Positions 9,538 to 21,004 of a DNA stretch of 64,000 nt are shown here, one piece after another. Below the pieces are notes generated by a model, which did not search any database, was not told the DNA's origin, and saw nothing but the letters and a program-made list of their open reading frames with translations. This stretch comes from Clostridiales bacterium. GTDB taxonomy: Bacteria > Bacillota > Clostridia > Lachnospirales > Lachnospiraceae. The position numbers were made by a program, and so were the translations under genes. Each line of letters begins with the position of its first letter. Position 1 is the stretch's first letter. Where the stretch lies: NCBI GenBank assembly GCA_020860715.1, contig JAJBTU010000011.1, forward strand, positions 1 to 64,000, written 5' to 3'.

Positions 9538-10770
9538 TTATTTCTCCGCAAACTCCTGAAACGCCGCATAATCCGCATCCGCATTGTAAAGCTTCAGCAC
9601 CTGCATCATGTCGGTCGCGCTGTAAGTGTTTTCATAGGTACTGATGGACTGCGCATACAGCTCGTTGAATTCTTCGGTATCCGCCGCGTACCAGTAGGTC
9701 TGATACAGGCGGAACGCATATCCGTCCTCATCGCGAAAATCATCCGCGTACCCGGCGTAAGCGTTGCACATCGCGACAAACGACGGACCGACGATTGCGC
9801 CGTATTTTCCGACCAGGCAGTTCAGCCTTGAGTCGCCGTTTGCGTCTGTCTCGTTGAAAAAGGCGTAATTCTGGTCTGTGAAGCAATCGACCATGCCGAC
9901 CTTGATGTCATAGCCGTACTCCGCTTCCGCATTGCAGATGTTGGTGATCGCGTTGGCGATGGTCATGGCCGAGATCACCATGGTATATTCACCGCCGGTC
10001 ACGGCTTCGCCCACTTCACTGCCATCCACCAGATAGCCTGGGAAAATAGTAATGCCAACGTCTGTGCCGGTCTCGATTTCCGTCGTTTCGGTGATTGTGG
10101 CAAGCTCCTCAATGGACTGGTCGTAGGTCAGTCCGTAAATATCCTGCAGCTTTGTCAGGATGCCGATGGTCCTTAAGCGATGCATTTCATTGCCGAGACC
10201 GCTGCCGCCGGTCACGACCAGATAGCTCGCGCTGTTGCTCTCATCAAGTGCCGCAAGGTCTTCCGCGAGCGTTTCGCCTGCCGTCTGCTCATCCTCCGTG
10301 GTCGGACCGATGGTTCCGAGAAAATACGGATTGTCCTTTACGTTTTCATATACTTCATCGGAAATCGTACCGGATCCGAGCACGTAATACATCCCGTACT
10401 CCTCACACACCGGAAGCACATCCTCTATATAGGTCGAAAGGAAAGAGATGATGCCTTTTACACCTGCTTCGTGCAGTTCTTCCACAAACGCAATCTCATC
10501 CTCGGCCGTGTCAATCCGCTCCGCATTATAATAGAAGGTCGTGTTAAACGCGGTGCCAAGGTAATCTTCAAAATAATCCCGGAAAGCGATTGCCTCCCAG
10601 TCCTCCGGATCATAGACGGACACGCCAATGGTGTAGCCCGCGGCCAGCTCCTCCGCTGCGGACAGGGTTTCCTCCGCTGCCAAAGCCCTGCTTCCTTCCG
10701 CCGGCACTCCGGCAAACGTACTTATGCCAAACAGCAGTCCAAGCAAAAATATCGCAGCTGATCTTCTCAT
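9538..10770 (-). CDS. secreted DUF3798 protein (periplasmic-binding-protein-like)
   Basis: A 410-residue exported protein with a signal peptide (MRRSAAIFLLGLLFGISTFA, likely cut after RALA). The mature part (YTIGVSVYDPEDWEA, GVKGIISFLSTY, YYVLGSGTISDEVY, YLVVTGGSGLGNEMHR, YTMVISAMTIANAI) has the alternating strand/helix pattern of type I periplasmic binding proteins and matches what I know of DUF3798. There is no lipobox cysteine, so anchoring is unclear. It is the last gene of the cobalamin-riboswitch operon, behind a complete Opp/Dpp-type ABC importer that already has its own binding protein. I infer a second ligand-capture or sensing subunit; the ligand is unknown. Start 10770 has AAAGGA six bases upstream. 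Confidence 0.75.
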   Translation of the reverse strand: MRRSAAIFLLGLLFGISTFAGVPAEGSRALAAEETLSAAEELAAGYTIGVSVYDPEDWEAIAFRDYFEDYLGTAFNTTFYYNAERIDTAEDEIAFVEELHEAGVKGIISFLSTYIEDVLPVCEEYGMYYVLGSGTISDEVYENVKDNPYFLGTIGPTTEDEQTAGETLAEDLAALDESNSASYLVVTGGSGLGNEMHRLRTIGILTKLQDIYGLTYDQSIEELATITETTEIETGTDVGITIFPGYLVDGSEVGEAVTGGEYTMVISAMTIANAITNICNAEAEYGYDIKVGMVDCFTDQNYAFFNETDANGDSRLNCLVGKYGAIVGPSFVAMCNAYAGYADDFRDEDGYAFRLYQTYWYAADTEEFNELYAQSISTYENTYSATDMMQVLKLYNADADYAAFQEFAEK

Positions 10771-10793
10771 GTCGAATCCTTTCTCGTAATAAT

Positions 10794-10820
10794 GTAACTG
10801 TTCCGTACCTTCGCAGTTAC
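10794..10820. repeat. 27-nt dispersed palindrome, copy 1
   Basis: GTAACTG and CAGTTAC arms flank a 13-base spacer (TTCCGTACCTTCG). It lies between the second ATPase gene and the DUF3798 gene. Copies of identical length are at 30253, 35478 and 55379. Confidence 0.8.
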
Positions 10821-10908
10821 AGGCAATATCCCTTGCGAAGCATGGGATGCCACCCGGCGAGGGCATATCCCGCAATTTATAGCAGTTTCTTAATCACACT
10901 TCATAATC

Positions 10909-11943
10909 TCAAAACAGATGGCACGCCACCTCATGCCCTTTTCCGATTGTTTTCAGCGACGGCTTTTCTTTTTTACAGATTTCCATGCACCGGTCGCAGC
11001 GGTTCTGAAACGGGCATCCGGGAGGCGCATCGACCGGGCTGGGAGCTTCACTCTCGATGCTCTCGATCTTTTTGGTAAAATCCATCTTTGTAGAAAAGAT
11101 CGCGCCTAGCATGGCCTGTGTATACGGGTGCTGCGCGTTGGTCGCCACCTCGCTGCCTGAAAGCACCTCCACGATATTTCCGAGGTACATCACTGCCAGC
11201 TGATGCGCAAAGGACTGCACCAGCGCCATATCGTGGCAGATGAACACGAAGGAAATTCCTTTTTCTTTCTGCAGCTTTACCAGCAGCTCAATGATGCGGT
11301 CCTGTACGGAAACATCCAGCGCCGATGTTGCCTCGTCGCAGACGATGATCTCCGGCTCCAGGGCAAGCGCCCGCGCAATGCCGACTCTCTGCCGCTGCCC
11401 GCCGCTCATGTTGTGCGGATAACGGTAAATGAAATCCTCCGGAAGTTCGACCATGCGAAGCAGCTCCTTCGCTTTTGCCTCGCGCTCCGAGCGTTTGATC
11501 AGCTTAAAGTTCATCAGCGGCTCGGTGACTATGTCGATAATTTTCATCTTAGGGCTGAACGCGGCAGCCGGATCCTGAAACACCATCTGGATCTTTTTCC
11601 GGCTCTGACGCAGTTCCTCGCCTTTCAGTTTTGTGATGTCTTTTCCGTCAAAGAGAATCTGTCCCTCTGTCGGCTGAAACATCTGGACGATCATTTTTAC
11701 AAAGGTCGATTTGCCGCAGCCGCTCTCCCCGACGATGCCGAGCGTCCTCCCGCGGTAAACGGTCAGGTTGATGTCGTTGCAGGCTTTGAGGGTTCGTCCG
11801 CCGGAAGCGGGAAACTGCTTTGTAACATGGCAGGCCGTCAGGATTGCCTCGTGTCCGGTCTCTTTTTCCGACATATAATCTGCTCCCGCGCTGCCATCCG
11901 GCATCGGATTCACTGCCGCATTCTCATTTTTTTCAGGAGACAT
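10909..11943 (-). CDS. Opp/Dpp/Nik-type ABC transporter ATPase (OppF-like)
   Basis: Second nucleotide-binding subunit of the family-5 importer, 344 residues. Walker A GESGCGKST, Q-loop VFQDP, signature MSGGQRQRVGIARAL, Walker B IIVCDEATSALD and the H-loop VFICHDM are intact. The C-terminal oligopeptide/dipeptide-transporter extension carries the PGCPFQNRCDRCMEICKKEKP cysteine cluster, which in this family can bind an iron-sulfur cluster. An unusual hydrophilic N-terminal 30 residues precedes the domain. The start (GGAGGG eight bases upstream) overlaps the end of the preceding ATPase gene by 11 bases, so the two are translationally coupled. Confidence 0.93.
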   Translation of the reverse strand: MSPEKNENAAVNPMPDGSAGADYMSEKETGHEAILTACHVTKQFPASGGRTLKACNDINLTVYRGRTLGIVGESGCGKSTFVKMIVQMFQPTEGQILFDGKDITKLKGEELRQSRKKIQMVFQDPAAAFSPKMKIIDIVTEPLMNFKLIKRSEREAKAKELLRMVELPEDFIYRYPHNMSGGQRQRVGIARALALEPEIIVCDEATSALDVSVQDRIIELLVKLQKEKGISFVFICHDMALVQSFAHQLAVMYLGNIVEVLSGSEVATNAQHPYTQAMLGAIFSTKMDFTKKIESIESEAPSPVDAPPGCPFQNRCDRCMEICKKEKPSLKTIGKGHEVACHLF

Positions 11944-12730
11944 AACGTTTTCCCTCCATTTCCGGCACAGCGGCCAGCAGATTCTTTGTATAATCGTTCG
12001 TCGGATGCTTCATCACATCATCTCGTGTCCCGCGGTCTACGACCTTGCCGTACTGCATAACGACCAGTTGATCCGCCATATAGGCCGCCACGCCGATGTT
12101 ATGCGTGACAATGATGACCGAAGTGCCGAACTGGTCGCGCAGCTCCATGATCTGCCGCACGATCTGCGCCTGCGTCGTTACGTCCAGCGCACTCGTGGGC
12201 TCGTCCGCCAGAAGCAGCTTCGGGGAAAAGGTCATCGCCATGGCAATGCCGACCCTCTGCCGCATTCCGCCGGAGAGCTGGAACGGATAGCTGTTCATGA
12301 TATTCCGGCCGTCCGGCAAACGCATCCGCTCCAGCATTTCTACGCCTTTATCAAAGGCGTCCTTTTTCGATATCTTCTCGTGGGTGCGTATGTATTCCAC
12401 ATACTGCGCCCCGATCTTGCGGATCGGATTGATCATGGCTCCGGAGTCCTGAAAGATCATGGAGACCTTTGACCCTCTTAAGTCGCGCCACTCGTTTTTG
12501 GAAAGTTTCAAAAGGGAGCGTCCTTCAAACAGGATATCTCCATCGGTCACCTGTCCGCCGCCGGGAAGCAGCCCCAGCACGGCACGGATCACGGTCGTCT
12601 TGCCGCTTCCGCTCTCCCCGACGACACTGACCACCTCGCCCTCTTTCATATCGAGATTGAAATGTTCGATCGTCGGTTTGGGATTTTTCCCGTATTTCAC
12701 AGATATATCCTGTATGTTCAGCAAATCCAT
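11933..12730 (-). CDS. Opp/Dpp/Nik-type ABC transporter ATPase (DppD/NikD-like)
   Basis: First nucleotide-binding subunit of the importer, 265 residues. It has Walker A GESGSGKTT, Q-loop IFQDSGAMINP, signature LSGGMRQRVGIAMAM, Walker B LLLADEPTSALD and the H-loop VTHN. It lacks the long cysteine-bearing C-terminal extension of OppD proteins and in length is closer to NikD. The ATG at 12730 has AGGAGG seven bases upstream. The gene is separated from the binding-protein gene by a duplicated hairpin (12751-12879), which may tune its expression relative to the binding protein. Confidence 0.92.
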   Translation of the reverse strand: MDLLNIQDISVKYGKNPKPTIEHFNLDMKEGEVVSVVGESGSGKTTVIRAVLGLLPGGGQVTDGDILFEGRSLLKLSKNEWRDLRGSKVSMIFQDSGAMINPIRKIGAQYVEYIRTHEKISKKDAFDKGVEMLERMRLPDGRNIMNSYPFQLSGGMRQRVGIAMAMTFSPKLLLADEPTSALDVTTQAQIVRQIMELRDQFGTSVIIVTHNIGVAAYMADQLVVMQYGKVVDRGTRDDVMKHPTNDYTKNLLAAVPEMEGKRYVS

Positions 12731-12750
12731 AACCAATCCTCCTGATATAT

Positions 12751-12879
12751 GTCCTCAATCTGCGTAAGCAGGTTGAGGACGCAGACCGCGCCATCGTGCG
12801 AAGCGCGATATATAATGCGCGGTTCACCTTAGTATTGTCCCGATTTGCGTCAGCTAATCGAGGACGCAGACCGCGCCAT
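12751..12879 (-). repeat. duplicated hairpin between binding-protein and ATPase genes
   Basis: Two units (12751-12794 and 12837-12879) share a 20-base direct repeat, GAGGACGCAGACCGCGCCAT, at 12775-12794 and 12860-12879. Each unit also folds: GTCCTCAA/TTGAGGAC in the first, and CGATT/AATCG flanked by GTCC/GGAC in the second. They probably protect or attenuate the mRNA after the abundant binding-protein message. Confidence 0.7.
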
Positions 12880-12885
12880 ATTTTT

Positions 12886-14514
12886 TTACTCCGCTGGCTT
12901 GATGTCTGTGCTCAGCCAGTAGTAGTCAAATGTCGAAATCTCCGCTCCGGTCACCTTGGACGCGTTGCTGATCATCGTCGAATTGTAATAGCCGTGCAGC
13001 AGAACCGCGCAGTCATTGACCAGCACCTGCTCCATCTCGACCACCAGTTCATTTCTCTCATCGGTATCAAGAGATGCAATAAACTGCTCATACAGCGCGT
13101 CAAATTCATCACTGTCATAATTGCAGTAGTTGGTACCGTTCTGGTTGTCCTCACCATAGAAGTTTGATCCGTCCTCACCGCCGTACCAGTTCAGCAGGAA
13201 TGCAGTCGGGTCTCCGGTGCCTACGGTAATCCAGTTCGAATCACAGAGATCATACTCACCGGCCTGCATCAGGTTCCACTCGGTTTCACTGTCGGTGCTG
13301 TTCACACTCACACCGATGCCGATCGCGGAAAGAGAAACCTGGACTGCCTGCGCGAAATCAGACAGACAGCGATTGTTGTAGGTAACATAATTCAGGTTGA
13401 TGTTTTCGCCGTCCAGCTCGCGGATCCCGTCGCCGTCCGTATCCACAATACCGGCCTCATCCAGCAGTGTGGTCGCCGCGTCGATATCATATGCATACGG
13501 ATTATCCAGATTCTCATCCTCATAAATCAGGGACGAAGGCAGGATACCGACGCCGGCGGTATACATGCCGCCCACCGTGACGCTGCACATCGTCTCACTG
13601 TCAATCGCCATACGGACTGCCTGACGCAGCGTATCATTTCCAAGCACGCCGGCCATATTGATGTAAGCAAATCCGCTTCTCACACCGGAAGCCTGGGATA
13701 CATAATAAGCATCGTTGGCTTCCAGAGTCGCCAGATCACTGGACGTCGTCACATTCTCCGTCAGATCCACCAGCCCGCTCATCAGAGACATTGCTTTGGT
13801 CGTATCGTCTTCAATGAATGTAAAATTCACTGTCCCGTAAGGAACCTCACCGTTCCAGTAGTTCTCATTTGCAACCAGAGTACCGCTCTTCGTTGTTGTG
13901 TCAAACGAGGACAGCGCATAGGGACCGGTCGCGATCACAGTCGTCGCGTATCCGCCCTCATGCTCCGCATCGGTCGTGTCGCCATAAACATCTATGATCG
14001 AGTAGTACGGGAAACACAGAGCAGCGGTCAGATCCGCCATCGCCGTATTCAACACGATTGTCACGGTATTCGCGTCCGTGTCGGCCTCAATGCTTGCCAT
14101 GTCAATGTAGCCGGCCGGGGTGGAAGTGAGATCGTCGCTGTTCGCACATACATAGTAAAGACGATTCAAAGAATCCGCGACTGCCTGCGCGTCGCAGGCA
14201 TCTCCGTTTGAGAACAATACGCCGTCGCGGATGTGGAAGGTCCAGGTCAGCTTATCGTCGGACGCCTCGTAGGTATCGCAGAGCATGGGTTCTACGCTCA
14301 TGTCATTGTTGAATTTGAACAAGCATTCCGTGACACCCATACGGACGCCCTGCCATGCGGCATTCTGATATCCGGCCGGGTCAAACGAGGTCGCATATAC
14401 ATAGCATCCAAAATTCAGCACATCATCCGACGCCGCCTGTGAGACGACCGGGGAGGCGCTTACCACCATTGCGGCCGCCAGCGTGGCAGCCAGTACTTTT
14501 TTCAGCTTTTTCAT
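12886..14514 (-). CDS. family-5 extracellular solute-binding protein
   Basis: Ligand-binding subunit of the importer, 542 residues, in the OppA/DppA/NikA class. A signal peptide (MKKLKKVLAATLAAAMVVSA, cut near SQAAS) has no lipobox cysteine. Class motifs include the N-terminal LNFGCYVYATSFDP, MGVTECLFKFN, YEASDDKLTWTFHIRDGVLFSNG, ATGPYALSSFD and RQAVRMAIDSETM. Ligand identity cannot be deduced: peptides, nickel or cobalt chelates, or corrinoids are all possible for this fold, and the riboswitch upstream argues for a cobalt or corrinoid link. The start at 14514 has GGAGGAAAT upstream. It is placed in the middle of the operon, after the two permease genes. Confidence 0.9.
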   Translation of the reverse strand: MKKLKKVLAATLAAAMVVSASPVVSQAASDDVLNFGCYVYATSFDPAGYQNAAWQGVRMGVTECLFKFNNDMSVEPMLCDTYEASDDKLTWTFHIRDGVLFSNGDACDAQAVADSLNRLYYVCANSDDLTSTPAGYIDMASIEADTDANTVTIVLNTAMADLTAALCFPYYSIIDVYGDTTDAEHEGGYATTVIATGPYALSSFDTTTKSGTLVANENYWNGEVPYGTVNFTFIEDDTTKAMSLMSGLVDLTENVTTSSDLATLEANDAYYVSQASGVRSGFAYINMAGVLGNDTLRQAVRMAIDSETMCSVTVGGMYTAGVGILPSSLIYEDENLDNPYAYDIDAATTLLDEAGIVDTDGDGIRELDGENINLNYVTYNNRCLSDFAQAVQVSLSAIGIGVSVNSTDSETEWNLMQAGEYDLCDSNWITVGTGDPTAFLLNWYGGEDGSNFYGEDNQNGTNYCNYDSDEFDALYEQFIASLDTDERNELVVEMEQVLVNDCAVLLHGYYNSTMISNASKVTGAEISTFDYYWLSTDIKPAE

Positions 14515-14545
14515 TTGCTTATTTCCTCCATAAAAGAAAATTGAT

Positions 14546-15373
14546 TTATTCATCTCTGGGATCCAGGACGTCCCGCAGACTGTCTCCTAAGAGGTTGAAT
14601 ACCACAACAGTTACCAGAATCGCGAGACCCGGATACAGCATCATCCAGGGTGCCGCCATCATATAGCTCCGACCCTCACTCAGCATCAGACCCCATTCCG
14701 CCATCGGCGCCTGCGCGCCAAAGCCGAGGAAGGACAGTCCCGCCAGTTCCAGCATCATGCTTCCAATGTCGGTAAACGCAGTCACCAGCAGCGTCGGCAT
14801 GACGTTCGGAAACAGGTAAACACTTAAGATATGCGGCGTGGTCGAGCCGGTCACCCGTGCAGCCGCAATGTAATCACAGTTCTTAATCTTTAGAACCAGT
14901 GAGCGCGCCAGTCTGGCATATTTTGTCCAGCTCACAGCAGTAATTGCGATCACCGCGTTGGTAATGCTGGCTCCCAGAATACCGGCGATAGCGATGGCCA
15001 GCACCATGCCCGGAAAGGAGATCATCATATCCGCGATGCGCATGATCACCGCGTCCACCCAGCCGCCGAAATATCCCGCCAGAATACCCAGCACCGATCC
15101 GACTACAAAAATGCACGCCACCAGGATCAGCGCCGAAGACAGTGAAATGCGGCTTCCGAAAATCACTCTGGAAAAGAGATCCCGACCCAGCTTGTCCGTG
15201 CCGAACCAGTGTGTGGAACTCGGCGCCTGCAGTGCGTCGGTCAGCACAGCCTCATAGGGATCGTAAGGAGCAATATAGTCCGCGAATATCGCGACCAGCG
15301 CGAGCATGGCTGCCAGAATGGCAAACACCGTAAACGCCTTATGTTTTTTGATAAAGCTTATTATCTTCTGCAT
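14546..15373 (-). CDS. Opp/Dpp/Nik-type ABC permease (DppC/NikC-like)
   Basis: Inner-membrane permease of 275 residues with about six membrane helices. The N-terminal DPYEA...[21 protein letters not shown] motif is the hallmark of DppC/NikC proteins, and the coupling (EAA) loop is seen at [24 protein letters not shown]. The ending [12 protein letters not shown] is typical. It lies 15 bases after the DppB-like gene and 31 bases before the binding-protein gene, clearly in one operon. Confidence 0.93.
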
Positions 15374-15388
15374 ACTCTGCCCCTTTCC

Positions 15389-16423
15389 TCAGCCTTTCAG
15401 TGAACCCGACGTACCGGATGCCGCGGCCGCCTGATTTGCGCCCGCCTTTGTCTGGCGCGTCTCTTTTTTTGAAGAACGGGGCGCAGCCATGTTGCTTCTC
15501 ATGCGCGGATCAACCAGATTGTATGAAAGGTCAACCACCAGATTGACGACCATGTAGATCAGCGCGATCCAAAGCACATAGCCCTGTATCAGCGGATAAT
15601 CCATGGAAGAGATCGCCGACACCGCCAGACTGCCAAGTCCCGGATAGGAGAAGATCACTTCCACCACCGCTGTGCCGCCGAGCAGGGAACCGAGGGACAG
15701 TCCCAGCATCGTGATCAGCGGAAGCAGGGAATTCGGAAACACATGCATCCACAGGATTTTGCTTTCTTTAATTCCGCGGGCACGCGCCCCGGTCACATAA
15801 TCCTGATTCAGCTCCTCCAGAACCGCCGTTCGCACCTGCCTCGCATATTTCGACGACATCGGAAACGCCAGCGTCAGCGCCGGAAGGATCATCGGTTTGA
15901 TTCCCGTGCCGATGGAAATGACCGGCAGCCAGCCGAGCACCATTCCTATGTAGTAGGCCAGCAGCAGGCCAACCCAGAAGTTCGGCATAGACACGCCAAG
16001 AAACGTGTAGCCGCGGACGATGTAGTCAAAAATGCTTCCTTTATACACCGCCGAGATCATGCCGAGCGGGACCGCGATCACCAGCATCATCACCAGAGAG
16101 AGCAGCGCCAGCTTCAGCGTCGGCAAAAGCCTGGACGACAGAAGCGTCAGCACCGGCGTTTTCAGCGAGTAGGACGTGCCAAAATCTCCATGCAGGCATC
16201 CGGTCAGCCAGTTCCAGTACTGCACCAGAAGCGGATCGTTCAGCCCCATCTCCTCTCTGGTCGCCTCCAGTACCGCCTCACTTGGTATCGTACCGTTGAC
16301 CGCGTACATCGAGCGCACCGGGTCTCCGGGAGCCAGATACGTCAGCGCAAATGTCAGAAAACTGATTCCCACAAGCACAATCACAATCTGCAGGAGTCGT
16401 CCGCCGAGCTGCTTTTTACTCAT
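15389..16423 (-). CDS. Opp/Dpp/Nik-type ABC permease (DppB/NikB-like)
   Basis: First gene of the riboswitch-controlled operon; 344 residues, six predicted membrane helices. DppB/NikB motifs: the N-terminal helix with FLTFALTYLAPGDPV, the GLNDPLLVQYWNWL and GDFGTSYSLKTPV periplasmic segment, the coupling loop DYVTGARARGIKESKILWMHVFPN, and EVIFSYPGLGSLAVSAI. A hydrophilic 35-residue tail (SKKETRQTKAGANQAAAASG) extends past the usual end LVDPRMR and is atypical. Its leader contains a cobalamin riboswitch and two terminator-like hairpins. Confidence 0.93.
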   Translation of the reverse strand: MSKKQLGGRLLQIVIVLVGISFLTFALTYLAPGDPVRSMYAVNGTIPSEAVLEATREEMGLNDPLLVQYWNWLTGCLHGDFGTSYSLKTPVLTLLSSRLLPTLKLALLSLVMMLVIAVPLGMISAVYKGSIFDYIVRGYTFLGVSMPNFWVGLLLAYYIGMVLGWLPVISIGTGIKPMILPALTLAFPMSSKYARQVRTAVLEELNQDYVTGARARGIKESKILWMHVFPNSLLPLITMLGLSLGSLLGGTAVVEVIFSYPGLGSLAVSAISSMDYPLIQGYVLWIALIYMVVNLVVDLSYNLVDPRMRSNMAAPRSSKKETRQTKAGANQAAAASGTSGSLKG

Positions 16424-16531
16424 CGCTTTTCCCTCTTTTCACTGTTAATCGGTCAGGCAGTCTTGTCTCCTGCCCGCCCGCGTGGGCTGCGTTCGGCTTT
16501 AGCCGAAAAATGCCTCTTGCAGCCCTGCGCA

Positions 16532-16566
16532 TAAAAACAAGAAACGCGCCCCGTTTCAGGACGCGT
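16532..16566 (-). terminator. terminator-like hairpin, distal, in riboswitch leader
   Basis: On the minus strand ACGCGTCC pairs with GGGGCGCGT around TGAAAC and is followed by TTCTTGTTTTT. It lies about 110 bases before the first gene and could be a second attenuator. Confidence 0.5.
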
Positions 16567-16626
16567 CTTAAGACTCTTATATCTGCAGCATGCGGCCATC
16601 GATCCCGCACTATCAATCGGAAAATG

Positions 16627-16650
16627 AAAAAAGCGCCCGGCACGGGACGC
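16627..16650 (-). terminator. terminator in the riboswitch expression platform
   Basis: On the minus strand GCGTCCCG pairs with CGGGCGC (one bulge) around TGC and runs directly into TTTTTT. It lies about 90 bases after the riboswitch 3' box and is the likely ligand-controlled intrinsic terminator. Confidence 0.65.
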
Positions 16651-16734
16651 ACTTTCACTCCTGTTTTTGCACGCAAAAATAAGATGTATAAAAGCTTTTC
16701 CTATCCACCGTAAGAAGAAACCAATCCTCGGACG

Positions 16735-16945
16735 CAAGCAGTTCTCCTGACTTAAGATCAACGCCTTCTGTCGCCTTCCCACCAGACAAACGCCTCGCAG
16801 TGACATACCGCACAGCACCTTTGGTTCTTTATTGTCAAACAAAAATGCCGCATTTTTAACAGAAGACTCCCTATCACAGTGACGGGATCGTACCGGACTC
16901 TCACCGGTTTCTCTTTTAATCCCCGATTAGGGGGAACATGCATCC
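16735..16945 (-). ncRNA. cobalamin riboswitch
   Basis: The minus strand carries the conserved blocks of adenosylcobalamin riboswitches in order: AAACCGGTGAGAGTCCGG, GATCCCGTCACTGTGA, GTCACTGCGAGG, GGTGGGAAGGCGACAG and the 3' B12 box AAGTCAGGAGAACTGC (16738-16753). The size is normal. It is followed by terminator-like hairpins and then the DppB-like gene, so corrinoid binding should switch the six-gene ABC operon off by transcription termination. Recognition is by sequence blocks only, not by a covariance search. Confidence 0.93.
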
Positions 16946-16978
16946 TCTATTCAGTTTTAAAATATCTAAATCGTATTC

Positions 16979-17077: not shown

Positions 17078-17107
17078 TTGACAGATTTCGCCTTTTCCCT
17101 TTATAAT
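17078..17107 (+). promoter_or_regulatory. promoter of the P-type ATPase gene
   Basis: A perfect TTGACA (17078-17083) and a perfect TATAAT (17102-17107) are separated by 18 bases and point toward the ATPase. The leader is about 200 bases and contains an inverted repeat (17197-17261). Confidence 0.75.
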
Positions 17108-17196
17108 GCCTGTAAATCCTTCCATCGAAATCTAATTTCATTTTAGAATATCTAAGCGGTCATCGCGGTCTGCGATGATTTATTTTCGTATCACCA

Positions 17197-17261
17197 GTTC
17201 AGAACAGCAGCGAAATGGAAAAACAGGAGCGGAGCGTAGACCTGCGGCCTGCTGTTCTGAA
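17197..17261. repeat. long inverted repeat, copy A
   Basis: TTCAGAACAGCAG (17198-17210) is perfectly complementary to CTGCTGTTCTGAA (17249-17261). The segment CTGCGGCCTGCTGTTCTGAA (17242-17261) recurs exactly at 39577-39596 ahead of the ABC exporter genes. It lies in the ATPase leader. Confidence 0.75.
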
Positions 17262-17315
17262 TCATATGAAAACCACATGAACCCAATATACCACACAGGA
17301 AAAGGAGAATCCGTT

Positions 17316-20042
17316 ATGAGCAAAGAAGAACTTCTCCATGAAGAAGACGAATGCGGCTGCGGACACGATCATGAGGAGCACGACGAATGCGGCTGCGGAC
17401 ACGATCATGGACACGATCATGATGATCACGACCATAAGCATCATCACATCGAGGGGCATCCGGACGACTGTGAGTGTGAACTCTGCCACCCGCATGAAGA
17501 TTACTGCGACGTGTGCGGGCAGAGCCTCTCGAACTGCACCTGCCGCATGCCGGATGAAGACTGCGTAAAGAAAGTCTATCTGCTGGAAAATTTAGGCTGT
17601 GCCAACTGCGCTGCCAAAATGGAGAAAAAAATCAAGGAGCTGCCGGGCGTGACCTACGCGACCATCACCTACACGACAAAGCAGCTGCGGCTTTCCGCGA
17701 AGGACCCGGACGCGCTGCTGCCGCAGATTCAGGCAATCTGCTCCGCAATCGAGTCCGAAGTAAAAGTTTTGCCGCGCACAAAGTCCCCCGGCACACTGGT
17801 CACCAGAACCTATACAGTGGAAAACTTAGGCTGCGCCAACTGCGCCGCCAAGATGGAAAAAAGAATCAGTGAACTGGACGGCATCACGACCGCAACGCTG
17901 ACATTCGCGACCAAACAGCTGCGTGTAAGCGGCAAAAATCCGGACGGCCTGTTTGCAGAAATGCAGAAAATCTGCAGCACCATCGAGTCCGAAGTGAAGC
18001 TGGTACCCAAAGATACCCGTCCGAAGAGCAAGGACACGCTGAATGTCAATGAGATTCTGCCGGAAGCGCGTCAGATGGAGCCGCCGTTTGCGCTCTCCGA
18101 CAATATGAAAACGCTGCTCGGCATCGGGCTGGGCGCGGTACTGTTCATCTTGGGTGAAGTGCTGGAACATCGCGGACAGGATACCGCCTCCCTGCTGGTG
18201 CTGCTGGTCGGCTATGTGGTACTCGGCGGACGCATCGTGCTTACCGCCGTAAAAAATCTTTTCAAAGGACAGATTTTTGATGAGAATTTCCTGATGAGCA
18301 TTGCCACACTCGGCGCGTTCGCCATCCGCGAATATCCGGAGGCAGTCGGCGTCATGCTCTTCTACCGCATCGGCGAGTATTTTGAACATATTGCCGTGGA
18401 AAAGAGCCGCGGACAGATCATGGATGCGGTCGATATGCGTCCGGAAGTCGTCAGCCTTGTGGTCGGTGAGGATATCCGTGTCATTGACGCGGAAGATGCC
18501 AACGTAGGCGACATCCTGCTGATCCGTCCGGGCGACCGCATTCCGCTGGACGGCGTCATCGTAGATGGCGAGAGCCGTCTGGACACTTCGCCTGTGACAG
18601 GCGAACCGGTACCCGTAAAGGTCGGCTACGGTGATGAAGTCGTCTCCGGCTGTGTGAACACGTCAGGTCTTCTGAAGATTCGCGTAGAAAAAATTCTGGA
18701 AGAATCCATGGTCACCCGCATTCTCGATTCTGTAGAAAATGCGGCTGCCAGCAAGCCGAAGATTGACCGCTTCATCACACGGTTTGCAAGAATCTACACC
18801 CCGGTCGTTGTGATCCTGGCGGCGGCAACAGCCATCATCCCGTCCCTCGTGACCGGCAACTGGTACTATTACATCTACACGGCGCTGACCTTCCTTGTCA
18901 TGAGCTGCCCGTGCGCTCTCGTTTTAAGCGTTCCGCTCGCCTTCTTCTCCGGCATCGGCGCCGGCTCGAAGCGCGGTATTCTCTTCAAGGGCGGCGTCGC
19001 TCTGGAGGCCATGCGAAATGTCGACGCAGTCGTCATGGACAAGACCGGCACCATCACGAAAGGCAACTTCGTCGTACAGCGCGCCGTACCTGCCGCCCCG
19101 GATGTTTCACAGGACGAGCTGCTGTCTCTCTGCGCAAGCTGCGAATTGACGAGCACCCACCCGATCGGTGTGAGCATCTTAAGTGCGGCGGATGAGCAGA
19201 AAATCAGCTACGCGCGCCCCATAAAAGTAGAAGAGATTGCCGGACACGGCATCCGCGCAGTGCTTCCTGCGGCAGGCAATTTCTCCGTTGCTTCACAAAA
19301 TATCAATGCCGAAACTTCTGACGCAGCTTCAGATTCCGAAAAAGAATCCGTCACAGGCGCTTCCGGGACCTGCACGGTTCTTTGCGGCAACCGCAAGCTG
19401 ATGGAAAAATTCGGCATTTCGCTTGAAAATTATGAAAAGAAAGGCTTTGGAACAGAAGTGCTCGCCGCCAAAGACGGCGTTTTCATCGGCCACCTCGTCA
19501 TCTCTGATACCATCAAGGAAGACGCAAAATCCGCGATCAGCCAGATTAAGTCACTCGGCATTGAGACCATCATGCTGACCGGCGATGCGGAGGATTCCGC
19601 CGAGGCCGTTGCGGACGCGACCGGCATCGATGAAGTACACGCGAAGCTGCTTCCGCAGGATAAGCTCACCGAGCTGATTCAGGTGCGGAATTCACACGGT
19701 GCCGTCATGTTTGTCGGCGACGGCATCAACGACGCACCGGTACTCGCGGGTGCGGATGTCGGCGCGGCCATGGGAAGCGGCGCGGACGCTGCCATCGAGG
19801 CGGCAGACGTCGTGTTCATGACTTCCAGCATGGAAGCCATCCCACAGTCCCTCGCCATCGCGCGGGCGACCAGCGCCATCGCATGGCAGAACGTCATCTT
19901 CGCACTTGTTATCAAAGTACTCGTCATGATCCTCGGCCTGTGCGGCTTCGCCTCCATGTGGATGGCGGTGTTCGCCGATACCGGCGTTGCCATGCTCTGC
20001 GTGCTGAACTCGATCCGGGTGCTGTATAAGAAAAAGATTTGA
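17316..20042 (+). CDS. heavy-metal P1B-type ATPase (Zn/Cd/Pb class)
   Basis: ATP-driven metal exporter in the cytoplasmic membrane, 908 residues. A Cys/His-rich tail (residues 11-75 with ECGCGHDHE repeats, HDHDDHDHKHHH and CELCHPHEDYCDVCG) is followed by two heavy-metal-associated domains, each with GCANCAAK (first at 94-101). The membrane CPC motif is at 531-533, the phosphorylated Asp575 is in DKTGT, and TGEPVPV and GDGINDAPVL are intact. The CPC-proximal sequence fits ZntA/CadA better than copper ATPases. A 30-residue insert after the HGIRAVLP motif is low-complexity. The ATG at 17316 with AAGGAGA is preferred over upstream codons. Metal specificity is inferred. Confidence 0.92.
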   Translation: MSKEELLHEEDECGCGHDHEEHDECGCGHDHGHDHDDHDHKHHHIEGHPDDCECELCHPHEDYCDVCGQSLSNCTCRMPDEDCVKKVYLLENLGCANCAAKMEKKIKELPGVTYATITYTTKQLRLSAKDPDALLPQIQAICSAIESEVKVLPRTKSPGTLVTRTYTVENLGCANCAAKMEKRISELDGITTATLTFATKQLRVSGKNPDGLFAEMQKICSTIESEVKLVPKDTRPKSKDTLNVNEILPEARQMEPPFALSDNMKTLLGIGLGAVLFILGEVLEHRGQDTASLLVLLVGYVVLGGRIVLTAVKNLFKGQIFDENFLMSIATLGAFAIREYPEAVGVMLFYRIGEYFEHIAVEKSRGQIMDAVDMRPEVVSLVVGEDIRVIDAEDANVGDILLIRPGDRIPLDGVIVDGESRLDTSPVTGEPVPVKVGYGDEVVSGCVNTSGLLKIRVEKILEESMVTRILDSVENAAASKPKIDRFITRFARIYTPVVVILAAATAIIPSLVTGNWYYYIYTALTFLVMSCPCALVLSVPLAFFSGIGAGSKRGILFKGGVALEAMRNVDAVVMDKTGTITKGNFVVQRAVPAAPDVSQDELLSLCASCELTSTHPIGVSILSAADEQKISYARPIKVEEIAGHGIRAVLPAAGNFSVASQNINAETSDAASDSEKESVTGASGTCTVLCGNRKLMEKFGISLENYEKKGFGTEVLAAKDGVFIGHLVISDTIKEDAKSAISQIKSLGIETIMLTGDAEDSAEAVADATGIDEVHAKLLPQDKLTELIQVRNSHGAVMFVGDGINDAPVLAGADVGAAMGSGADAAIEAADVVFMTSSMEAIPQSLAIARATSAIAWQNVIFALVIKVLVMILGLCGFASMWMAVFADTGVAMLCVLNSIRVLYKKKI

Positions 20043-20053
20043 AAGGATCTCTC

Positions 20054-21004
20054 ATGAAAACCGACATGACCTACGGCGGCCTGACCGCTGCCCCATGCAC
20101 AAAAATACAGGGCTTCGTCCCGCTCGGACCATCCGGCGAGACGATCCCCGCGACACTGATCAACGGAGCCGGTGAGGGCAGGACTGTCCTCATCTCCTCC
20201 GGTATCCACGGAAGCGAATATCCCGGCATCCTCACCGCCATGGAACTGGCAAAAGAACTCACGCCGGAACAGATCAACGGACAGCTGATTCTCCTGCATC
20301 CGGTCAACACCGCCGCTTTTTACGAGCGGCGCAGCTACATCAACCCTGTGGTCGGGGAAAACTTAAACCGGCTCTACCCTGGCTCGCCGGACGGCTCCAT
20401 GGCCGAACGGGTCGCCTGGTACATGGGTGAGGAATACCACAAACGGGTCGATTTTGTCATTGACCTCCATGGCGGCGATGTGCCGGAAATCCTGCCGCCC
20501 TACGTGTACACCCCCGGTATCGGAAATCCGGATGTTCTGAAAGCGTCCATGGACGCGGCGCTTCTGGTAAACGCCGACTATCTAGTAAAATCAAAATCCA
20601 CCACCGGCTTTTACAACTCCTGCGCCATCCAGGGTACACCGGCCATCCTCATAGAGCGCGGCAGCCAGGGTATCTGGAGCCGCGAGGAAGTTGACACGTA
20701 CAAGGCAGATGTTAAAAATCTTCTTGTACATCTGGGTCTCCTGTCAGGTACTGTAAAACAGCCGGCAAAAAAAGCGTACCTTCTCACAAATGTCGTATTT
20801 CTCGACGCGCCCGTCTCCGGCTGCTGGCTGCCGGAGGCCGCTCTGGGCGAGCATGTGAAAAAGGGACAGATTCTCGGCATTATCACCGATCTGTTTGGCC
20901 GCACACTCACAGAAATCCGCGCGGAATTTGACAGCATTGTCGTCAGCTTCGCGGTTTCCCTCGGCATAAAGGAAGGCGACCAGCTGATCACGTACGGGAT
21001 TTAA
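20054..21004 (+). CDS. succinylglutamate desuccinylase/aspartoacylase-family protein
   Basis: Zinc-dependent M14-like deacylase or carboxypeptidase, 316 residues. The metal-binding motif GIHGSEYPG, the later DLHGGD, and NLNRLYPGSPDGS fit the AstE/AspA family (His, Glu and a second His as ligands). A C-terminal beta-barrel-like part (VFLDAPVSGCWLPEAALGEHVKKGQILG) resembles a biotinyl-type domain, as in related proteins. It begins 11 bases after the ATPase stop with AAAGGA upstream, so it is probably co-transcribed with it. The substrate, perhaps an N-acyl amino acid or amide, is not deducible. Confidence 0.85.
   Translation: MKTDMTYGGLTAAPCTKIQGFVPLGPSGETIPATLINGAGEGRTVLISSGIHGSEYPGILTAMELAKELTPEQINGQLILLHPVNTAAFYERRSYINPVVGENLNRLYPGSPDGSMAERVAWYMGEEYHKRVDFVIDLHGGDVPEILPPYVYTPGIGNPDVLKASMDAALLVNADYLVKSKSTTGFYNSCAIQGTPAILIERGSQGIWSREEVDTYKADVKNLLVHLGLLSGTVKQPAKKAYLLTNVVFLDAPVSGCWLPEAALGEHVKKGQILGIITDLFGRTLTEIRAEFDSIVVSFAVSLGIKEGDQLITYGI

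Follow-up and report, generated by a model that had tools for sequence, protein, structure and literature searches.

A cobalamin riboswitch-led Nik-type transporter operon in a Lachnospiraceae bacterium, with chelated cobalt as its probable cargo

What does a bacterium import when a transporter of the oligopeptide/nickel type stands under the control of vitamin B12? This question is raised by a stretch of 64,000 nucleotides (the window: contig JAJBTU010000011.1, positions 1 to 64,000, of assembly GCA_020860715.1) from a Clostridiales bacterium of the Lachnospiraceae, in which a cobalamin riboswitch is followed by six genes, all on the minus strand and thus co-oriented as a preliminary description of this DNA had stated. 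That description left the cargo between corrinoids, a corrinoid precursor and chelated cobalt; our computational comparison favours chelated cobalt, and the corrinoid cargoes less so. The system is conserved and real, with cobalt as its likely cargo. We propose that the operon probably encodes a B12-repressed importer that takes up cobalt, most plausibly bound to a small organic chelator, and that would thereby supply corrinoid synthesis, for which cobalt is required.

A riboswitch-led operon with Opp2-type permeases

Listed from the riboswitch onwards, the elements of the operon are these:

16720..16956, minus strand: cobalamin riboswitch aptamer, RF00174 (covariance model, 82.8 bits, E 7.1e-19)
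16542..16650, minus strand: two terminator-like hairpins (16633-16650 and 16542-16568, terminator scan), the presumed expression platform
15389..16423, minus strand: permease B, Opp2B type (NF045470, 394.1 bits, cut-off 350)
14546..15373, minus strand: permease C, Opp2C type (NF045474, 335.8 bits, cut-off 300)
12886..14553, minus strand: family-5 substrate-binding protein with a NikA-like fold (likely start 14514)
11933..12736, minus strand: ATPase D, OppD/NikD type (profile matches)
10909..11943, minus strand: ATPase F, OppF type (profile matches)
9538..10770, minus strand: second exported binding protein with a type-I periplasmic-binding fold, in a narrow family of its own (open reading frame 9538-10875, likely start ATG 10770)

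The preliminary description had claimed the riboswitch and proposed a scan with the Rfam cobalamin models. That scan bore the claim out: the match at 16956-16720 (-) is significant, spans the full length of the model (positions 1-189), lies far above the gathering cut-off (82.8 vs. 31.5 bits) and is the window's sole Rfam match at gathering threshold. Both of the terminator-like hairpins said to lie 3′ of the aptamer were also found, between the aptamer and the first gene; 10 mononucleotide shuffles of the leader gave none, and the wider region holds 21 terminator-like sites (vs. 9.0 expected). At least one such hairpin was present in 20 of the 22 leaders tested, the window's included (vs. 0 to 1.0 per mononucleotide-shuffled leader), and a hairpin lies 40-94 nucleotides past the aptamer in the 16 leaders examined. 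The two leaders without one are those of the second binding protein in Blautia loci; the leaders of L070, L041 and probably L081 are long and hold other genes, and hairpins there may be meaningless (G, L and C numbers are our handles for genomes, loci and contigs). From the riboswitch class and these hairpins, we infer that corrinoid controls transcription termination. An antiterminator, in which the 3′ end of the aptamer would pair with the 3′ arm of the terminator, was tried and rejected: pairings of 7-8 base pairs occur in 11 of the 16 leaders, none of them singly beyond chance (28-139 of 200 shuffles equal it across the 11 leaders having one). As for a promoter claimed upstream, a promoter-like site exists (TAGACA-17-TAAACT, with TG before the second hexamer, at 17007-16979), but the number of such sites in the region is within chance level (11 vs. 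7.6 by chance, standard deviation 2.8), and the site is weak evidence for a promoter. The terminator that was said to close the operon did not reappear: the scan lists none on that strand right after 9538 and none before 9265.

The transporter proteins give the first indication of the cargo. Both permeases belong to BPD_transp_1 (Pfam) and not to the FecCD permeases of BtuFCD, which rules out identity with that corrinoid importer. Their best-scoring models are the Opp2 ones, both named “nickel transporter” by NCBIfam; permease B exceeds the Opp2B cut-off and stays below those of NikB and Opp1B, and permease C likewise exceeds that of Opp2C and stays below those of NikC and Opp1C. The nearest solved neighbours of the family-5 binding protein model are nickel-binding proteins, NikA being the closest. 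We favour chelated cobalt in part because of this combination of Opp2/Nik-type permeases with a NikA-like binding protein. The operon could instead import peptides and be B12-regulated by happenstance, given that peptide transporters also belong to family 5 and also have the C-terminal oligo_HPY domain seen in ATPase F; however, the Opp2 scores of both permeases, together with the metal and cobalt genes linked to the operon (see below), disfavour a simple peptide importer, and we regard this explanation as very improbable.

Two side observations concern the operon genes. The leader of the family-5 binding protein is plain Sec-like in the window and twin-arginine-like (SRRxFLRG) in a subgroup of loci (L029-L031, L117), and a MATE-like efflux gene, named from reading its translation, lies inside or right after the operon in a Blautia-like subgroup (L066/L038, L062, L068, L142).

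Conservation and companion genes

The second binding protein has homologues in 19 of 60 relatives and also on 42 named contigs (27 from Lachnospiraceae, Blautia or Robinsoniella; 11 assigned to Clostridiales or Eubacteriales only; and four others, from Ruminococcus, Oscillospiraceae, Coriobacteriaceae and Clostridia), the named-contig scan using two short patterns and being no census. A search of 391 genomes of the class at E ≤ 1e-15 places the family in 7, the window's own included. The preliminary description had raised the point that homologous operons might consistently lack the riboswitch; we found that a same-strand cobalamin riboswitch lies upstream of 31 of the 32 non-paralogue operons that have the second binding protein, the transporter and upstream sequence (14 genomes, the window's own included, 16 further loci and L142; the exception is L072), and that it persists where the identity of the second binding protein has fallen to 35-40%. 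This count leaves aside loci cut by contig ends (G020, G029 contig C115, L056, L064, L069, L079, L080, L082, L083), among them L064, where an ATPase fragment occurs and the few hundred bases ahead of the transporter hold no riboswitch; it also leaves aside the G006 fragment, L071 (no full transporter adjoining), L085, the distant G052, G055, G008 C25 and G032 C163, and four riboswitch-less paralogues (L057, L058, L059, L123).

Linkage to the riboswitch takes other forms as well. In G023, G030, G031 and G029 contig C27, riboswitch-led transporters have no second binding protein on the stretch fetched, G030 and C27 ending at contig ends and C27 possibly forming one broken operon with C115; in two Blautia loci (L062, L068), separate cobalamin riboswitches precede the transporter and the second binding protein. 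Divergent family-5 transporters (24-51% identity per gene) lie behind cobalamin riboswitches in G016, G019 and G011 (L091, L110 and L120, respectively), so B12-switched transporters of the class are wider than the family described here. A nearly complete operon, cut at the binding protein, occurs on a short Coriobacteriaceae contig (L083), through either gene transfer or misbinning.

Divergent from the operon lie two genes that were missed in the preliminary description and that seem to belong to the module:

17175..20042, plus strand: P1B heavy-metal ATPase with a His-rich N-terminus, HMA domains and a CPC motif (TIGR01512, 476.2 bits, cut-off 313.5)
20039..21004, plus strand: AstE/AspA-type deacylase, overlapping the ATPase gene (PF24827, E 1.4e-24)

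A promoter-like site that matches the consensus at 12 of 12 positions (TTGACA, 18, TATAAT) stands upstream of the ATPase gene at 17078-17107 (+). In other loci, the ATPase lies between riboswitch and transporter (G007 (L041), L070 and G029 (L122)); in several, AstE is encoded on the same strand, either after the second binding protein or on one side or the other of the transporter. An ATPase match is present in 26 of the 42 named loci, 19 of these matches being clear, two weak (L072, 43%, a fragment; L084, 28%) and five of a shorter kind (L062, L068, L080, L081, L082; 42-43%); AstE is present in 14 of the 42, and neither gene occurs in the three urease-linked loci described below. For a genome-wide comparison, operon genomes were those with a riboswitch and a match to ATPase D at 67% identity or more, and the other genomes of the genus formed the comparison set (19 vs. 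15). G020, whose contig ends inside gene D and whose riboswitch is on another contig, was counted as an operon genome; the comparison excluded two ambiguous genomes, G006 and G019, each with AstE and without CbiM. AstE was found in 15 of the 19 operon genomes vs. none of the 15 others (Fisher p 2.2e-6; this test and the one for CbiM below ignore shared ancestry). Its residues H57, E60, H144 and E206, which we take to be the zinc ligands and catalytic base, are invariant in 17 sequences, of which some share a genome.

That the operon holds two unrelated binding proteins had been noted before; this is correct, and the arrangement is conserved in relatives. The assignment of the second one to DUF3798 fell away: it has no Pfam match even at E 10, PF12683 finds nothing in the window's own genome at E 10 and is missing from the nine families that 16 aligned members hit at E up to 1, and the portions of the DUF3798 literature available to us state no function where the name occurs. 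Its structure model (predicted local distance difference test score, pLDDT, 83.5) has the type-I periplasmic-binding fold, with 450 PDB matches at E ≤ 0.001, and a profile of the family, searched against the sequences of solved structures, gave nothing convincing (best E 0.14). The fold is shared with CUT2-type sugar-binding proteins (ribose, glucose/galactose); CUT2 systems differ in that they have a sugar-type ATPase and permease, whereas the operon offers only the family-5 transporter as a partner, and identity to 2rjo is 13%. We know of no type-I binding protein that docks on family-5 permeases; a distant homologue (L149, 30% identity) lies near a double-ATPase gene. The role of this protein is the least certain point of the mechanism proposed below.

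Cobalt, nickel or corrinoid

The four riboswitch-less paralogues form a branch (tree support 0.996) nested in a clade (support 0.989) that also holds riboswitch-led operons, and three of them (L057, L058, L059) adjoin urease genes (UreC, UreG and UreD of L057 confirmed by Pfam). Urease requires nickel, and the urease-adjoining branch therefore looks like a nickel version of the transporter. Compared with the window, its family-5 binding protein is ~31% identical and its permeases and ATPases ~72-88%, and three binding proteins of the branch share two histidines absent from the riboswitch clade. A riboswitch-less clade with urease neighbours points to a metal as the cargo.

Could the operon of the window then import nickel itself, or a broad range of nickel, cobalt and zinc chelates, with the riboswitch as a partial or historical control? 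The NCBIfam name of both permeases and the nickel-binding structural neighbours speak for this, as does the linked ATPase, which passes the cut-off of a cadmium-family model (TIGR01512). Against it stand the near-constant riboswitch, kept even where the second binding protein has greatly diverged, and the urease-adjoining clade, which has no riboswitch and so dissimilar a family-5 binding protein; we hold nickel or mixed-metal import to be improbable.

The cobalt and corrinoid genes of the hosts bear on the same question. CbiD, a marker of anaerobic corrinoid synthesis and the one gene of that pathway searched for, is present in 57 of 59 genomes, the window's own included. CbiM has a match in 18 of the 59 and none in the window's genome, which is rated 100% complete; it occurs in 2 of the 19 operon genomes (G007, G029) vs. 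8 of the 15 non-operon genomes of the genus, two of these 8 matches being partial (Fisher p 0.0098). CbiM is part of CbiMNQO, the standard energy-coupling factor (ECF) importer of cobalt, which likely has the same task as the operon; in some relatives (e.g. G018), cbiM too stands behind a cobalamin riboswitch; to our knowledge, it is unrelated to the transporter families of the window. We favour chelated cobalt also because the host has CbiD, with CbiM absent in it and in 17 of the 19 operon genomes, because a CbiK cobaltochelatase gene directly follows the operon in one locus (L076, seen once), and because the urease-linked sister clade lacks the riboswitch.

Besides the shared ancestry that both Fisher tests ignore, several findings weigh against this reading. 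The family-5 binding protein stays below the cut-offs of the NikA equivalogs (210.7 vs. 600 for NF045468; 145.9 vs. 393 for TIGR02294), no histidine is conserved over the 21 riboswitch-clade sequences compared, and a tyrosine stands where phmmer aligns Arg137 of NikA; the metal-site residues of NikA are Arg97, Arg137, Tyr402 and His416 in the part of PMC2667541 available, and the others have no reliable phmmer alignment to the window protein. The five shorter linked ATPases lack the His-rich part, and ATPase homologues occur in four non-operon genomes (G002, G003, G021, G025), which makes the link of the ATPase to the module weaker than that of AstE. In 6 of its 15 operon genomes (G004, G008, G010, G014, G020, G035), AstE is on a different contig from the operon. 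Of 23 further genomes to which homologues had led (G060-G082), 8 have CbiM matches at E ≤ 0.001, five of them strong (G070, G071, G072, G074, G077), and all seven non-operon genus genomes without CbiM (G003, G012, G016, G021, G024, G025, G033) keep CbiD, so other cobalt routes must exist. Finally, only two genomes (G032, G062), related to each other, supply the three urease-linked loci, which may therefore reflect a single event, and urease, found in 13 of 59 genomes, mostly lies away from the transporter and is absent in G014, holder of the fourth paralogue.

Some of these points would suit a corrinoid or a precursor such as cobinamide, the cargo towards which the preliminary description leaned, with AstE as a remodelling amidohydrolase. 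Cobalamin riboswitches also govern corrinoid uptake, AstE could act on an amide, and solved family-5 relatives include entries named heme-binding protein; cobalt may enter otherwise in the several operon genomes with CbiM (G007, G029 and the five strong cases), and the CbiD kept in CbiM-less genomes without the operon fits as well. Set against this are the urease-linked sister clade, the linked P1B metal ATPase and, once, CbiK, the permease scores above the Opp2 nickel cut-offs, and a separate system in the same genome (L024:5700-12178, contig C24), in which a riboswitch leads genes for a CbiK-type chelatase whose N-terminus resembles a signal sequence, for a Peripla_BP_2 protein, and for a FecCD permease with an ATPase. 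BtuFCD resembles the operon in its cobalamin-riboswitch control and differs in having just such a FecCD permease and Peripla_BP_2 protein, and the L024 system is the better candidate for corrinoid uptake; the operon of the window is thus not the sole candidate. This separate system is a further reason to prefer cobalt to a corrinoid, and we judge import of corrinoids by the operon to be unlikely.

Two further observations concern riboswitches of the host and its relatives. Operons like that of L024 stand behind riboswitches in several relatives. A cobalamin riboswitch also lies directly upstream of spoIVA, the sporulation coat ATPase, in the window's own genome (contig C12, L025:7329-9487) and elsewhere (loci L087, L090 and L101; genomes G003, G012 and G025). 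One would not expect a sporulation gene to be under B12 control, and in a literature search for spoIVA and riboswitch, none of the matches listed mentions spoIVA.

Known systems and a proposed route for cobalt

A B12-switched Nik-type cobalt importer is an already known kind of system, because such elements are described in the available parts of three articles: the NikABCDE systems of Clostridium tetani and Desulfitobacterium hafniense have a predicted B12 riboswitch upstream and are exempted from the nickel-specific ones (PMC2667541, whose Table 2 gives two cobalt NikABCDE in Clostridia), the cobalamin aptamer of Sporomusa ovata nikA was used in a reporter chimera (PMC9600662), and B12 operons or riboswitches led to the recognition of many cobalt transporters (PMC7689651). 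The C. tetani, D. hafniense and S. ovata systems, compared by description only, resemble the operon of the window in the kind of transporter and of control element; those parts make no mention of a second binding protein, a deacylase or a P-type ATPase. With NikABCDE/Opp2 nickel-cobalt importers in general, the operon shares the five-subunit layout, permeases above the Opp2B and Opp2C cut-offs and a binding protein model nearest NikA; it differs in the unmatched NikA cut-offs, the lack of a conserved histidine, the cobalamin riboswitch, the type-I binding protein, the P1B ATPase and AstE. Companion genes of these kinds (second binding protein, metal pump, deacylase) are unusual beside such importers. 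Dual binding proteins with a deacylase, a metal ATPase and a urease-linked clade are not described in the available text of the open-licence matches listed, and what was available of PMC4285132 and PMC8620254 holds nothing on this gene set.

For the import of chelated cobalt, we envisage the following course. With corrinoid in good supply, the riboswitch would fold and one of the two hairpins would end transcription; under corrinoid scarcity, the operon would be transcribed. By homology, the family-5 binding protein would capture a cobalt complex, to be pumped inward by the two permeases (B, C) and the two ATPases (D, F). For the second binding protein, that of type I, the probable ligand is the chelator itself or the complex in another form. 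The linkage of the two divergent genes suggests that the AstE-type deacylase probably breaks the chelator, releasing cobalt, and that the P1B ATPase probably expels other metals that enter with the cobalt complex. As a more tentative extension, which we consider possible and no more, all of this would form a dedicated cobalt-chelate pathway under B12 control, with a secreted or scavenged ligand, two unrelated binding proteins, a Nik-type pump, cleavage by AstE and expulsion of non-cobalt metals by the P1B ATPase, and one branch of the transporter would have been re-wired to nickel, with the riboswitch lost, urease alongside and the family-5 binding protein changed.

The linked deacylase predicts an amide-bearing cobalt ligand; a literature search for such ligands returned nothing relevant among the matches listed. 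With the operon present in the named strains B. schinkii MSK.6.26 and Blautia sp. MSJ-9, a culture test is thinkable, and the urease-linked sister clade would make a natural pair with the riboswitch-led operons for studying a metal switch of one transporter. If its cargo is indeed cobalt, the module would offer a concrete, testable answer to how some of the genomes examined obtain this metal.

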